The position numbers and the translations under genes are program-made. A stretch of DNA of 64,000 nucleotides, from contig NZ_KB899420.1 of NCBI RefSeq assembly GCF_000378205.1, positions 62,001 to 126,000 of the forward strand, given 5' to 3'. The notes under the pieces were generated by a model that searched no databases, was not told the origin of the DNA, and worked only from the letters and a program-made list of their open reading frames with translations. How positions within the stretch are numbered: the first letter of the stretch is position 1; each line of letters opens with the position of its first letter. Shown here piece after piece: positions 33,205-38,146 of the stretch. Origin of the DNA: Sediminispirochaeta bajacaliforniensis DSM 16054 (GTDB taxonomy: Bacteria > Spirochaetota > Spirochaetia > DSM-16054 > Sediminispirochaetaceae).

Positions 33205-33262
33205 CGAAACGGGACTTGGGAAAAAATGAAGAATGTGTCATTATCATATGGTACATTCGACA

Positions 33263-34198
33263 ATGAAAAGCAGTGGATTTATAACAACATGCAGGGCCGT
33301 GTTCCTTATCTGCATCATCTTTTTCTTCCGGGTGATTGCGGCAAATGCACAAACAGGAACACAAGGGGCCCCGCGTTCCGTCTTCTCGGAACTCAGGATC
33401 CTCAAGAGGGCCTATCCCAATACACTATTTTCCATCTCCTACGACACCATGGTGGAGGACTGGAAAATCACCATAGAGGCCAATGAGAAGAGCACCTCAC
33501 TCTATTGGGCGGACGGCCGCTATGTAAAATCCGATCAGTATGATGAGAAAGAACGCTACCGCCTTCTCATCTATCCGTACCGGATAGAGCTCATGGATCC
33601 CGCAACCCTTTCGCCAGAACAGATAGCCGCCATCGAATCCTTCGGCTCAACGGAACGGCGCAGCAAGGCGCCGGTCTCGAACACCGCCTTCTTCGATGCC
33701 ATCTACGATAGCGCAACGCGCAGCTCGGTCGAAAGCCATATCGTAACGTTCACCTTTCTGGGAAAACAGATTAATGTGCACGAGAAGATCACCGGCCCGC
33801 TCAAGCGGGTCGAGACCACGATCTTGCAGCTTGCCCGAAACGACAGCGTGGTAAAGGAGTTCACGGAGAGCATTGCGAGCATGCACGGTTACGCGTGGCG
33901 AGAGGTCCGCGATACCGCAGGGCGCTCCTTTCACAGCATGGGGCTGGCACTGGACATGCTGCCTTCTCAGAGGGAGGGCAAAGTCATATACTGGCTTTGG
34001 GAAAAAAACAGCGGGAACGAGACATGGATGCTTGTGCCGCTGGATAAACGGTGGATGCCTCCCGATTCGGTTCTCTCGGCTTTCGAAGAAGAAGGCTTTA
34101 TATGGGGAGGGAAATGGCCTGTTTGGGATAATATGCATTTTGAATATCGACCCGAACTCATCATCTCTGCCAGAGAAAACCAAAGGAAAAGCGAATGA
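33263..34198 (+). CDS. Secreted M15-family peptidase (D-Ala-D-Ala carboxypeptidase-like)
   Basis: About 311 aa. An N-terminal signal peptide (basic start, hydrophobic stretch to about residue 27, then ANAQT) sends it to the periplasm. The C-terminal half has the zinc site of M15 peptidases: SFHSMGLALDM gives His and Asp (about 223 and 230), and WDNMHFEYRPE gives the last His (about 292). It would trim peptidoglycan peptides. The start is uncertain: ATG 33233, 33248 and 33263 are in frame with no strong ribosome site. Its stop overlaps the DUF1893-ABC gene (ATGA), tying a zinc enzyme to a metal importer. Confidence 0.78.
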   Translation: MKSSGFITTCRAVFLICIIFFFRVIAANAQTGTQGAPRSVFSELRILKRAYPNTLFSISYDTMVEDWKITIEANEKSTSLYWADGRYVKSDQYDEKERYRLLIYPYRIELMDPATLSPEQIAAIESFGSTERRSKAPVSNTAFFDAIYDSATRSSVESHIVTFTFLGKQINVHEKITGPLKRVETTILQLARNDSVVKEFTESIASMHGYAWREVRDTAGRSFHSMGLALDMLPSQREGKVIYWLWEKNSGNETWMLVPLDKRWMPPDSVLSAFEEEGFIWGGKWPVWDNMHFEYRPELIISARENQRKSE

Positions 34199-35214
34199 CC
34201 CCATCCCTGGTTGCGAAAAAAAACGGTACGCTCTTCTTTACCAGCAACGGTCGCTGGCTCTATCCCCTGTTCGAATTGGAAGAGGCATGCCTGCATAACA
34301 ATATCGCCCCCTCGGATCTGTGTGTCGAGGATTCCATCGGAGGCATTGCCGCCGCAGGAATGATGCTGCATCTCGGCGTGAGAGATGTCCATATCCGCAT
34401 CCTGAGTCGGCTGGGCCTCAATTATTTCAGGCAGCATGGAATCACCCCGGGCTGGGACCAGCTTGTCGACAAAATCAGCTGTAAAACCGAAGAGATGCTA
34501 TCGGGCACGATGACTCCGGAGGAGATCTACATCTTTTTGAAAAAGCGGGCGGGCCTTACCGGGGGGATTCCCGTGGATATCGAAGAACTCTATGTCGGCT
34601 ATGGACGCCATAAGGTACTGAATGGGCTATCGCTCCACATGGATGCAGGAGAGGCCCTCATCATCCGCGGCAGCAACGGATCGGGGAAGACCACCCTTTT
34701 ACGAAGCCTTTTGGGGCTGCAGCCGATCGCTACCGGAAGCATTCGTCTTAACGGCGAATCAATCCAAAGCCCCGACTGGAACAAGCACCGCTGGATGTGC
34801 GGTTATGTGCACCAGGGACAGGTCACGAACGACTTCCCGATCTCGGCCAGGGAGGTTATCGAGATAGGCCTCTCAGGCAAGGCGGCAAAAAAAGAGGAGG
34901 CCGCAGCGAAGATCGAGATTGCGGCCCGAAGGACCGGCGCCTTTCCCCTCCTTGATCGCCCCTTCCACGAGCTCTCCGGCGGAGAAAAGCAACGGGTCAA
35001 CCTGGCCCGCTGCCTCTGTCAGGATGCCAGGCTCATTCTCCTGGACGAACCATCATCCTACCTGGACAAGGAGGGGAGAGCGGTCCTGAAGGAGCTTCTC
35101 GAAGAGATGAGCAGAACCGTTATTCCCACCATTCTCCTCGTCTCCCACGATGCCGACTGGACCTCCGCCCTCGGCTGGCCGGAGAGGTCTCTGGAGGGGG
35201 GACAACTATGTTAG
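34195..35214 (+). CDS. Metal ABC transporter ATPase with N-terminal DUF1893 domain
   Basis: 339 aa. Residues about 1-120 resemble the small DUF1893 domain (TSNGRWLYPLFELEEA, SIGGIAAAGMMLHLGVRDVH, ILSRLGLNYFRQHGITPGWD, CKTEEMLSGTMTPEE). Residues about 128-339 are a ZnuC/TroB-like ATPase: Walker A RGSNGSGKTTLLRS at about 157, signature LSGGEKQRVNLARCL at about 259, and Walker B LILLDEPSSYLD. The usual family is about 220-250 aa, so this is a fusion. It is coupled to the M15 gene and overlaps the permease by 7 bases. It probably energises zinc or manganese uptake. Confidence 0.85.
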   Translation: MTPSLVAKKNGTLFFTSNGRWLYPLFELEEACLHNNIAPSDLCVEDSIGGIAAAGMMLHLGVRDVHIRILSRLGLNYFRQHGITPGWDQLVDKISCKTEEMLSGTMTPEEIYIFLKKRAGLTGGIPVDIEELYVGYGRHKVLNGLSLHMDAGEALIIRGSNGSGKTTLLRSLLGLQPIATGSIRLNGESIQSPDWNKHRWMCGYVHQGQVTNDFPISAREVIEIGLSGKAAKKEEAAAKIEIAARRTGAFPLLDRPFHELSGGEKQRVNLARCLCQDARLILLDEPSSYLDKEGRAVLKELLEEMSRTVIPTILLVSHDADWTSALGWPERSLEGGQLC

Positions 35215-36011
35215 AGCTGCTGCAACTTCCCCCTGTCTGGAAGGGGCTTTTGCTATTGGTGGCAGGCGGGTTCCTCTTTCCCGTCACAGGTGTCTACATC
35301 GTCCGTATGAACCTGCTTTCGATCCGTTTCATGATGATGCATTCACTCATGCTCGGAGGCGCCATCGCCCTGGCCGCAGACCTTTCACCCGTCGGCGTAA
35401 CAACGGCGGTGAACGTCCTGCTGGTATTTCTGCTCGTATGGCTCTCCCGAAGCGGCGGCATGGAGATGGGCAGGGTCAACCTCTTTCTCATGATCCTGAG
35501 TATCGGCCTTGCCAGTATCCTTATGTACGCCTTCCACGTCCCGGCGAAGGATACGATGAATCTGCTCTGGGGCAGCCCCTTTACCGTCGGCTGGGATGAT
35601 TTTATCTCGGTCGGGCTTCTGGGCCTGGTCGTGATCGTTTATCAGGCCCGCTATGTCCGCCAGATCCGGGCGGTCTTCTTCGACCCGGACATTGCCTTTA
35701 CCTCCGGGGTCAATGAAAGTGCACACACCTATTTCATTGTCGGACTAACGGCCCTTGCGGTTGCGGCCGCCATGAAGCTCATGGGTGCCTTTCTCATGGA
35801 TGCACTTATTCTGCTTCCGGCCATCATTGCATCCTCCCAGGCTTCCAGCATGAAATCGGTCTTTCTCCGGGCCTCCTTTCTGGGAGCTGGCCTCAGCCTT
35901 ACCGGCTTCTTCGTCGCATTGCTTCTGAACTGGCCGGTGAGTGGAACCATTGCCGTTTTAGCCTCCATCGTTATGGGGATTAATCTAATAAAAAGGAGAT
36001 GTTATGCGTAA
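35208..36011 (+). CDS. Zinc/manganese ABC transporter permease (ABC-3 family)
   Basis: 267 aa with about eight hydrophobic segments, matching ZnuB/TroC permeases: GVYIVRMNLLSIRFMMMHSL near the start, LWGSPFTVGWDD in the middle and MGAFLMDALILLPAIIAS in the conserved late helix pair. It forms the membrane channel for metal taken up by the ATPase and binding protein on either side. It overlaps both neighbours (7 and 8 bases), so the three are translated as a unit. Whether the metal is zinc or manganese cannot be told. Confidence 0.85.
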   Translation: MLELLQLPPVWKGLLLLVAGGFLFPVTGVYIVRMNLLSIRFMMMHSLMLGGAIALAADLSPVGVTTAVNVLLVFLLVWLSRSGGMEMGRVNLFLMILSIGLASILMYAFHVPAKDTMNLLWGSPFTVGWDDFISVGLLGLVVIVYQARYVRQIRAVFFDPDIAFTSGVNESAHTYFIVGLTALAVAAAMKLMGAFLMDALILLPAIIASSQASSMKSVFLRASFLGAGLSLTGFFVALLLNWPVSGTIAVLASIVMGINLIKRRCYA

Positions 36012-36735
36012 GTTTTTATTGATCTGTTTTGTCGTCCTGATGCCCTTCTCACTTGCGGCACAAAATGTCGTTGCCTCCACCAGCTGGACCGCCGCCTTTG
36101 CCATGGCAGCCGGCGCCGACTCAGTCACCTTCCTCGCTCCGGCGGAGATGACCCACCCTGCAGAATACGAGCTCATGCCTTCCGATATTCCGAAAGTGGC
36201 CAAGGCCGACTATTTTGTGTATGCAGGATATGAGGTAATGATGGACGAAATCAACAAAACCCTTTCGGGCGACAGCTCAAAGGGAATCCAAATCGTCACC
36301 CAGTACGATTGGGAGACCATGGAACAGTCGGTTATGACCATTGCCAGACGCATGGGAACCATAGAGAAGGCAAAGGAAAACCTTGAAGCATTACAAGCCT
36401 TGTACGAACAGGCGGCACAAAAAGCAAAGGAAAGCGGTCTTGCCGGGCAGAAGGCCCTTGTCCATCGCTACCAGGTGCCCTTTGCCCAAACCCTTGGGCT
36501 TGAGGTCGTCGGCAGCTTCGGCCCCCAACCCCTGACCCTCGGCCAGATCAATCAGTTCAAGGATTCCGATGCCACCATCATCCTGGACAACATTCATAAC
36601 CCCATTGCAAAGCCCCTGCAGGAGATCCTCCCCAAAGCGACATGCTTCACACTCATCAATTTTCCTGGAACCAAGGGAACAAAAACCATCAACGATGTAA
36701 TTTCATACAATCTTACGGTGGTGACAAAAAAATAG
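36004..36735 (+). CDS. Short metal-binding protein of the ZnuA/TroA type
   Basis: 243 aa with a signal peptide (MRKFLLICFVVLMPFSLAAQ). The N-lobe metal motif MTHPAEYELMPSDI (His51, Asp61) matches TroA-like proteins, and a second His lies in ALVHRYQVPF with Asp in LDNIHNP. It is 50 or more residues shorter than typical ZnuA and lacks a His-rich loop, so the C-lobe is reduced. It delivers a divalent metal to the permease. GGAGATGTT precedes the ATG, and it overlaps the permease by 8 bases. It ends the operon. Confidence 0.78.
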   Translation: MRKFLLICFVVLMPFSLAAQNVVASTSWTAAFAMAAGADSVTFLAPAEMTHPAEYELMPSDIPKVAKADYFVYAGYEVMMDEINKTLSGDSSKGIQIVTQYDWETMEQSVMTIARRMGTIEKAKENLEALQALYEQAAQKAKESGLAGQKALVHRYQVPFAQTLGLEVVGSFGPQPLTLGQINQFKDSDATIILDNIHNPIAKPLQEILPKATCFTLINFPGTKGTKTINDVISYNLTVVTKK

Positions 36736-36811: not shown

Positions 36812-38146
36812 TTATAAACCTTCATTTTTCACTACATGATCTATATCCTGCAAGCCAAGTCCAATATATTCTTTTTCATATTCTTTATAGTTCTTAATCA
36901 AATTCTGTGACTTTTCCTTTAACTCGGTTATGTTAATTTTATCTTTATTCAACTTTACTTCTGCCATCTTTATTCTTTTATTCAATTCATCAATGCAGAC
37001 TATATCGATTTCATTCTGATTCCCTTTTTCCCAGTAATTTCCTATCTCCATATATTTCCCAGAGTTTCGATAGATTTCCTGATAAAGTTTTTCAAGTATA
37101 GGGCCACTATAACTTTTCAGAGTTTCTTTCAATTTATTTCGTATATATTCATAATTATTATTCTCAATGGCCGTTCTATATTTATATACATATCGAAACC
37201 AGAATTTCAAAAAATTATCACTTATACAATATTTCTGGATTCTTCCCGTTGGTTTTGCTCCTATAGGCTTTATCTTTCCAACGATATTATAATCAGTTAC
37301 TAATTTCTCTAAATACCCTCCAATGTCCTTTTCTAATATTGATTCAATTTCACTTCGTGAAGTTCGTCCTTCTGATAGAAGCTCTAAAATAGAAAAATAG
37401 GTTCCATATTCTTTCCCAAATTCTTCTATTAGAATCGTTCGCCCTTCCTCTATGAACGGTGAATCTACTTCAAAATAAAATCTCAATATTTCTTCTTCAC
37501 TAAATTTCTTATTTGCTAATAATATTTCCTGATAGCGTGGAACCCCGCCTGTAAGTAGGTAGTTTATGAATAAGTTCTCATTACTATATCTATTCTCATC
37601 TTCCAATATTTCTTTTATTACATGTGGAGGGAATGGTTTTAGATACATTACTCTATCTGCCCTTCCAAATAGAGGTTCTTTACTGTCCTTAAATATTTTA
37701 GTCATTAATGAATAAACTGATCCTATACAGATGAGGTGTATATTTGATGTATCCTTATATTGATCCCATACGTTCTGTACGTCTGAATATACTGATCGGT
37801 TTATTTGGAAAAACTCCTGAAATTCATCTAATATTACAACAATTTTCTCGTTCTGACCGATATCCATTATTATCTTGAATACATCTTTAAACCTACGAAC
37901 GTTTCCGTATATAGGGATATCGAACTTTTCTTTTATTGCCTGAGTAAACTCCTCACACAGAAGTACCTCATCTTTTTTTGAAACAAACAAATATAGAGTT
38001 TTTTTTCCTTTTGAATAAAGTTTTGACAGCGATGTTTTCCCTATTCTTCTTCTCCCCGTTATCACTGTCATTATCGATGTATCTCGGACTTGTTTATATT
38101 GTGTTTCGAGTATTTCTAATTCGCGTTCTCTTGCATAGAATTTCAT
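36812..38146 (-). CDS. AAA-type ATPase with DUF234 domain
   Basis: 444 aa. The P-loop GRRRIGKTSL is at residues 31-40, with Walker B VVILDEFQEF at about 101-110 and sensor-like CIGSVYSLM. The C-terminal part is the DUF234/restriction-like fold seen in archaeal-type ATPases (SDNFLKFWFRYVY, EIDIVCIDELNKRIKMAEVKL, where Glu/Asp/Lys resemble a nuclease core). Function is not established for this family. It is strikingly AT-rich and Lys/Ile/Glu-rich compared with its neighbours, which suggests transfer. Palindromes lie at its 5' side. Confidence 0.82.
   Translation of the reverse strand: MKFYARERELEILETQYKQVRDTSIMTVITGRRRIGKTSLSKLYSKGKKTLYLFVSKKDEVLLCEEFTQAIKEKFDIPIYGNVRRFKDVFKIIMDIGQNEKIVVILDEFQEFFQINRSVYSDVQNVWDQYKDTSNIHLICIGSVYSLMTKIFKDSKEPLFGRADRVMYLKPFPPHVIKEILEDENRYSNENLFINYLLTGGVPRYQEILLANKKFSEEEILRFYFEVDSPFIEEGRTILIEEFGKEYGTYFSILELLSEGRTSRSEIESILEKDIGGYLEKLVTDYNIVGKIKPIGAKPTGRIQKYCISDNFLKFWFRYVYKYRTAIENNNYEYIRNKLKETLKSYSGPILEKLYQEIYRNSGKYMEIGNYWEKGNQNEIDIVCIDELNKRIKMAEVKLNKDKINITELKEKSQNLIKNYKEYEKEYIGLGLQDIDHVVKNEGL

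Follow-up and report, generated by a model that had tools for sequence, protein, structure and literature searches.

A DUF1893 domain fused to the ATPase of an ABC-3-type importer: conservation in spirochaetes and a possible regulatory role

The window, i.e., the whole 64-kb stretch of Sediminispirochaeta bajacaliforniensis DNA analyzed here, encodes on its forward strand a protein joining a domain of the orphan family DUF1893 to the ATPase of an ABC-3-type importer operon. The fusion is conserved among spirochaetes, and beyond them DUF1893 recurs on unrelated importers, since an ECF S component is fused to the domain or encoded directly beside it in 49 of the 80 best of 565 confirmed relatives. 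DUF1893 probably assists importers from the cytoplasmic side. As to how it helps, we tentatively propose a ligand-binding regulatory domain of the importer ATPase, a reading held at somewhat less than even confidence, with substrate processing as its main rival and metal sensing in third place.

The fusion protein and its operon

The fusion gene (34195..35214, + strand) is an open reading frame with an ATG start, coding for 339 amino acids. A Pfam search of the whole protein assigned residues 4-113 to PF08973 (TM1506/DUF1893; 39.1 bits against a cut-off of 27, E 6.9e-10) and residues 142-287 to PF00005 (ABC_tran; 103.6 bits, E 1.8e-29). The first 128 residues searched alone returned PF08973 only (42.6 bits, E 5.8e-11). 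These results bear out the preliminary description, which had read the N-terminal region as DUF1893 joined to a ZnuC-like ATPase and had named a profile search as the way to check it. As modelled, the DUF1893/TM1506 domain occupies residues 1-124 (34195..34566, +) and the ABC ATPase domain residues 125-339 (34567..35211, +). In an alignment of the fused proteins the latter shows the complete motif set, comprising Walker A (GSNGSGKTT, 159-167), the Q-loop (Q207), the signature (LSGGE, 260-264), Walker B (DEP, 284-286), and the H-loop (H318). A sequence search of the PDB retrieved the DUF1893 protein of Borrelia burgdorferi (9e9a, E 6.3e-10), with TM1506 (1vk9) as a weak further match at E 0.027. 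A chance match to DUF1893 was ruled out by the Pfam score, the PDB sequence match, and the conservation among fused proteins. The genome holds a single DUF1893 copy.

Structure prediction led to the same assignment. The full-length model, computed from an alignment of 28 fused proteins, reached a mean pLDDT of 89.9 and a pTM of 0.83; the DUF1893 domain modelled alone (36 sequences) reached a pLDDT of 94.3. The domain-alone model superimposes on 1vk9 with Z 17.4 (rmsd 1.6, 114 residues aligned) and on 9e9a with Z 9.6. That the N-terminal region might instead align as part of the ABC fold, the counter-reading raised in the preliminary description, was rejected: ABC matches of the full-length model begin at residue 121 or later, and the domain alone matches 1vk9.

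All neighboring genes of the cluster lie on the same strand and overlap. Directly downstream, with a 7-base overlap, follows an ABC-3 family permease gene (35208..36011, +; PF00950, about 84.5-84.9 bits), which in turn overlaps by 8 bases a gene for a divergent ZnuA-family binding protein of 243 amino acids (36004..36735, +). The latter matches PF01297 with 31-34 bits, limited to profile positions 1-77 (77 of 263). Upstream, a gene for an M15 D-Ala-D-Ala carboxypeptidase (33233..34198, +; PF13539, 62.3 bits) shares its last 4 bases with the fusion gene; of the fused loci, only those of the window and the sister genome have it there. A riboswitch was sought as a clue to the transported substrate, and the Rfam search gave no match in the 64-kb window; it returned three tRNAs only from 11 ECF-type loci and one TD-2 sRNA only from seven spirochaete loci. 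Beyond the operon, an ATPase-like gene on the reverse strand (36812-38146, -) coincides with a stretch of 32% G+C, compared with about 52-59% in the adjoining operon, and by this composition looks recently acquired.

Conservation and origin among spirochaetes

PF08973 was detected in 82 of 392 genomes of the spirochaete phylum (own genome included). Within these, the domain is fused to the ATPase in 28 genomes and encoded next to it as a separate gene in two (loci L047 and L049, with the identity of the ATPase confirmed). Of the remaining genomes, 10 carry a standalone form of the CxTE subfamily, the same as the fused forms, 36 a standalone Borrelia-type protein, and six a member of the typical subfamily. 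The window's own locus is counted once in these numbers, and one truncated fused open reading frame (L063, 283 amino acids) was kept in the fused class. Every one of the 30 fused or split loci is followed by an ABC-3-type permease gene. A separate neighbor count used a simplified gene set, and 12 loci lacking a DUF1893 gene in that set were left out of this count only. The fused forms span nine genera and seven families, so that the conserved pairing to which the preliminary description had tied a functional clue does exist, fused in 28 and split but adjacent in two of the 392 genomes.

Apart from that of the sister genome, the fused proteins share 35-43% overall identity with the window protein. 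Ten residues of the DUF1893 part (W21, P24, D46, G50, A52, A53, S71, C96, T98, and E99) as well as the ATPase motifs are nevertheless invariant in all 28, and because of these ten residues the DUF1893 part appears to be under selection.

Several loci showed further features. Standalone Borrelia-type DUF1893 genes sit in a constant neighborhood (L008-L031 and L071), and the position of C96 is Asp in 25 of 25, residue counts for this type resting on 25 examined of the 36 genomes. At L053 (21-1303), a standalone DUF1893 gene overlaps a tetrapyrrole methylase gene. A Vut_1 (PF02592) gene lies two genes past the fusion at L069 (7973-8686), belonging to a cluster found at position +2 in four spirochaete loci.

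The history of the association was approached through two trees, their rows classed by us as fused, split, or unfused from inspection of the loci. In the permease tree (47 rows), all 28 fused and both split rows fall inside one clade of 34 with support 100/99. Four unfused rows are nested in this clade, and the other unfused relatives lie outside. Two of the nested genomes (G304, G391) carry DUF1893 elsewhere, and in the other two (G364 and G240, loci L182 and L184) none was detected. Since the permeases of fused and split loci belong to one clade, the association of DUF1893 with this importer probably arose once, with later fission or loss. The DUF1893 tree, which comprises 117 columns and has several weak forks, places standalone CxTE forms among the fused ones; fused plus split forms as a clade, a grouping fixed before the tree was inspected, were rejected (p-AU 0.0027). 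Such a topology fits a repeated release of the domain from the fusion.

The binding protein largely accompanies the subfamily. Its profile picked up 57 of the 392 genomes at an E threshold of 0.001; 44 scored at least 158 bits and were taken as the family count, the remaining 13 staying below 50 bits. DUF1893 of the CxTE subfamily occurs in 40 genomes and the binding-protein family in 44, with both in 35 (table 35/5/9/343; Fisher p 3.5e-36, a value that ignores genome relatedness and to which the fused and split loci themselves contribute 30 of the 35). In 24 of these 30 the cluster also includes the gene for the binding protein; in the other six that gene is elsewhere in the genome.

Candidate pocket, partners, and possible functions

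Across 151 DUF1893 sequences, D46, G50, and E99 are invariant. In the domain model, D46 (codon 34330..34332, +) ends strand 3 and S71 (34405..34407, +; Ser in 145 of 151, Cys in five, Ala in one) ends strand 4, while the C96-K-T-E99 motif (34480..34491, +) starts the helix after strand 5. From this order of secondary structure and the fold of the model, D46, S71, C96, and E99 would come together at the ends of three neighboring strands in one conserved pocket. Position 96 is Cys in 125 of 151 sequences, Asp in 25 (all Borrelia-type), and Glu in one. Such acidic replacements speak against Cys as an obligatory nucleophile and would fit a role in metal binding or acid-base chemistry. Beyond the DUF1893 family, the solved folds nearest to the domain model are FdhD (2pw9, Z 9.0; 4pde with GDP bound, Z 7.9), PurH (Z 8.1, 7.9, and 7.6), and deaminases (Z about 6-8, top 7.8); all of these values, 9.0 at most, are middling and lie at or close to the level where the resemblance may amount to a common arrangement and no more.

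According to the proposal we favor, the fusion protein is the ATPase of an ABC-3-type importer, with DUF1893 added to its N terminus as a cytoplasmic domain. The domain may bind a common cytoplasmic small molecule in its pocket, our guess being a nucleotide or NAD/ADP-ribose, and ligand binding by the ATPase-tethered domain would alter how readily the importer runs. A single common cellular ligand, as opposed to the transported substrate, is suggested because the residues stay constant while the partner changes from an ABC-3 ATPase to an ECF S component. The GDP-bound FdhD structure among the nearest folds counts in favor of a ligand-binding regulator, as do the conserved fusion with its ten invariant residues, the co-occurrence with the binding-protein family, the recurrence of the domain with ECF and ZIP partners, and the self-ADP-ribosylation stated for TM1506 (see below). 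Against it, four importers nested in the fused clade dispense with the fusion, two of them in genomes without detected DUF1893, the acidic residues at position 96 (Asp in the 25 Borrelia-type sequences, Glu in one) have to be accommodated, and the fold comparisons are middling as stated. Two further observations are not obviously explained by an ATPase regulator, namely the survival of free DUF1893 where the binding-protein family is missing (five of the 40 CxTE genomes) and the fusions, described below, to the substrate-binding subunit of ECF systems and to aldo/keto reductase, polyferredoxin, and nucleoside diphosphate kinase.

These partners were recorded in a contig scan with a typical-subfamily query, in which the best 80 of 565 confirmed relatives, a biased sample, cover Clostridia, Bacteroidales, Lentisphaeria, Synergistaceae, Halanaerobium, and others. 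A profile constructed for this analysis detected an ECF S component fused to DUF1893 in 21 of these 80 loci and, in 28 others, encoded on the same strand right beside it; the statement in the preliminary description that the domain is normally found alone is therefore not borne out in this sample. In 20 of the 80, DUF1893 is fused or adjacent to a [4Fe-4S] aldo/keto reductase, and neither partner occurs in 24. Of the S-component open reading frames in the same best 80 loci, 54 are joined to DUF1893 or lie no more than 400 bases from it on either strand, compared with three elsewhere. All seven fused proteins submitted to Pfam (L077, L080, L134, L104, L074, L090, and L139) scored above the PF12822 cut-off; the single adjacent S component submitted (L122) reached 29.9 against a cut-off of 30.7. 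The S component received no NCBIfam name, its best hits (folT family, CD3073) scoring below cut-off, and neither did L132 or L008. Other fusions join DUF1893 to an aldo/keto reductase (L131), a polyferredoxin (L128), and a nucleoside diphosphate kinase, NDK (L106, 8013-8867; L125, 7983-8831). At L127 (7983-10565), an open reading frame of 860 residues contains DUF1893 at residues 8-133 and no further Pfam match in the remainder.

This spread of partners speaks for the main rival. DUF1893 could act on the imported molecule, modifying it as an enzyme or capturing it as a trap (metabolic trapping), while tethered to any convenient importer subunit. We regard this as rather unlikely, though clearly ahead of the explanations that follow. 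Its predicted fold is enzyme-like with the Asp, Gly, and Glu set invariant in 151 of 151 sequences, the transporter partners vary from the ATPase through the ECF S component to ZIP, and the redox and kinase fusions, together with the reductase beside or fused to the domain in a quarter of the best 80 loci, would suit an enzymatic role. Free DUF1893 proteins, which persist and fall among the fused forms in the tree, point in the same direction, and so does a remodelled binding-protein site compatible with a substrate other than free zinc or manganese. On the other side, HxE and CxxC, the zinc motifs of cytidine-deaminase-like enzymes, were both missing from residues 1-124, and we know of no substrate shared by the ABC-3-type, ZIP, and ECF partners.

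The preliminary description had suggested that DUF1893 senses or regulates metal transport. Of this, the conserved importer fusion as a functional clue stands, whereas sensing of an imported divalent metal, with D46, C96, and E99 as metal ligands, appears doubtful. It would accord with the membership of the operon partners in the ABC-3 and ZnuA families, with the free DUF1893 gene located directly before a ZIP metal transporter gene in three spirochaete loci (L035, L041, and L045), and with the replacement of C96 by Asp or Glu only, both possible metal binders. The binding protein itself speaks against it, as its canonical metal-ligand segments are partly lost, with HPAEY, VHRYQ, and DNIHNP in their place. 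In its family, Ala or Pro replaces the first canonical His (DPHxY), an invariant His stands two residues before it (HPPEY), and the second canonical segment, DPHxW, is missing; the third ligand position is His or Asn in nearly all members, and a DNxH-type motif has an invariant Asp and His. By this alignment to the genome's two canonical proteins, made at low identity and with the exact correspondence a matter of judgement, the canonical four ligands are not all present in the window protein, two usual positions being missing. In the PDB it matched mainly metal-binding proteins of the Mn/Zn family, with E values no better than 1e-5, and the top matches are confined to its N-terminal part. The same genome also already holds two canonical ZnuA-type systems elsewhere, with two high-scoring ZnuA-family proteins (270 and 222 bits) and three high-scoring ABC-3 permeases (176-232 bits) on contig C2. 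A crude scan with consensus sequences upstream of 30 operons revealed no clear excess of metal-regulator boxes over shuffled sequence (observed/expected at up to three mismatches: Fur 2/1.2, Zur of B. subtilis type 1/0.3, MntR 0/0.2, PerR 2/2.1, Zur of E. coli type 4/6.5). Finally, the commonest partner outside the spirochaete subfamily, within the best 80 of 565 loci, is an ECF S component without assigned substrate, and because of this pairing metal need not be the common factor of DUF1893 partners. The system is thus a metal importer by family and, judged by its details, an uncertain one; for this third, divergent ABC-3-type importer of the genome a zinc or manganese substrate should not be assumed.

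A more specific variant starts from TM1506 of Thermotoga maritima, which, according to a passage in the review PMC8946771 that cites Iyer et al. 2011 for this protein, self-ADP-ribosylates on an Asp; the literature searched offered no other biochemical statement. DUF1893 might then be a general cytoplasmic importer module using NAD at D46, either as a self-ADP-ribosylation switch or by passing ADP-ribose to the incoming molecule, which we consider slightly less probable still than metal sensing. If true, this would make it, to our knowledge, the first importer controlled or coupled through ADP-ribosylation. Least credited is the view that the fusion persists passively and does nothing itself, which is very improbable: the trees fit several fissions or losses, but ten residues would hardly stay invariant in 28 of 28 proteins at such low overall identity.

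Comparison with known systems

The closest structural counterparts of the domain, TM1506 (1vk9) and 9e9a, have the same fold by the Z values given and share the invariant Asp, Gly, and Glu; the window domain differs from them in its fusion to an ABC ATPase. Further marks that set the spirochaete subfamily apart are W21 and CxTE, with about seven residues fewer before its CxxE motif than the NR...GxCPxE form. Systems with ZnuC/TroB-type ATPases likewise combine an ABC ATPase, an ABC-3 permease, and a ZnuA-family protein in one operon. In contrast to these, the window ATPase has an extra N-terminal domain of about 124 residues, its permease is divergent (about 84.5 bits as opposed to the 176-232 bits of the genome's other ABC-3 permeases), and the ligand site of its binding protein is remodelled.

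The fusions of DUF1893 to ECF S components (PF12822) in Clostridia and others also tether the domain to an importer subunit. They differ in the importer class and in carrying DUF1893 at the C-terminal end of the membrane protein, the S component being weakly folT-like. The orphan domain thereby gains a consistent partner, namely importers of at least two unrelated classes to which it is directly fused, and this link makes its function directly testable. The literature searched on DUF1893/TM1506 and related subjects contained nothing describing a DUF1893-ATPase fusion. Importer ATPases with an extra ligand-binding regulatory domain are exemplified by MalK, MetN, and OpuA, in which that domain is C-terminal and of other folds, whereas the extra domain in the window is N-terminal with a predicted, possibly deaminase-like fold. 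What the window encodes is accordingly a known type of importer equipped with a regulatory or accessory domain that is new relative to the literature searched.
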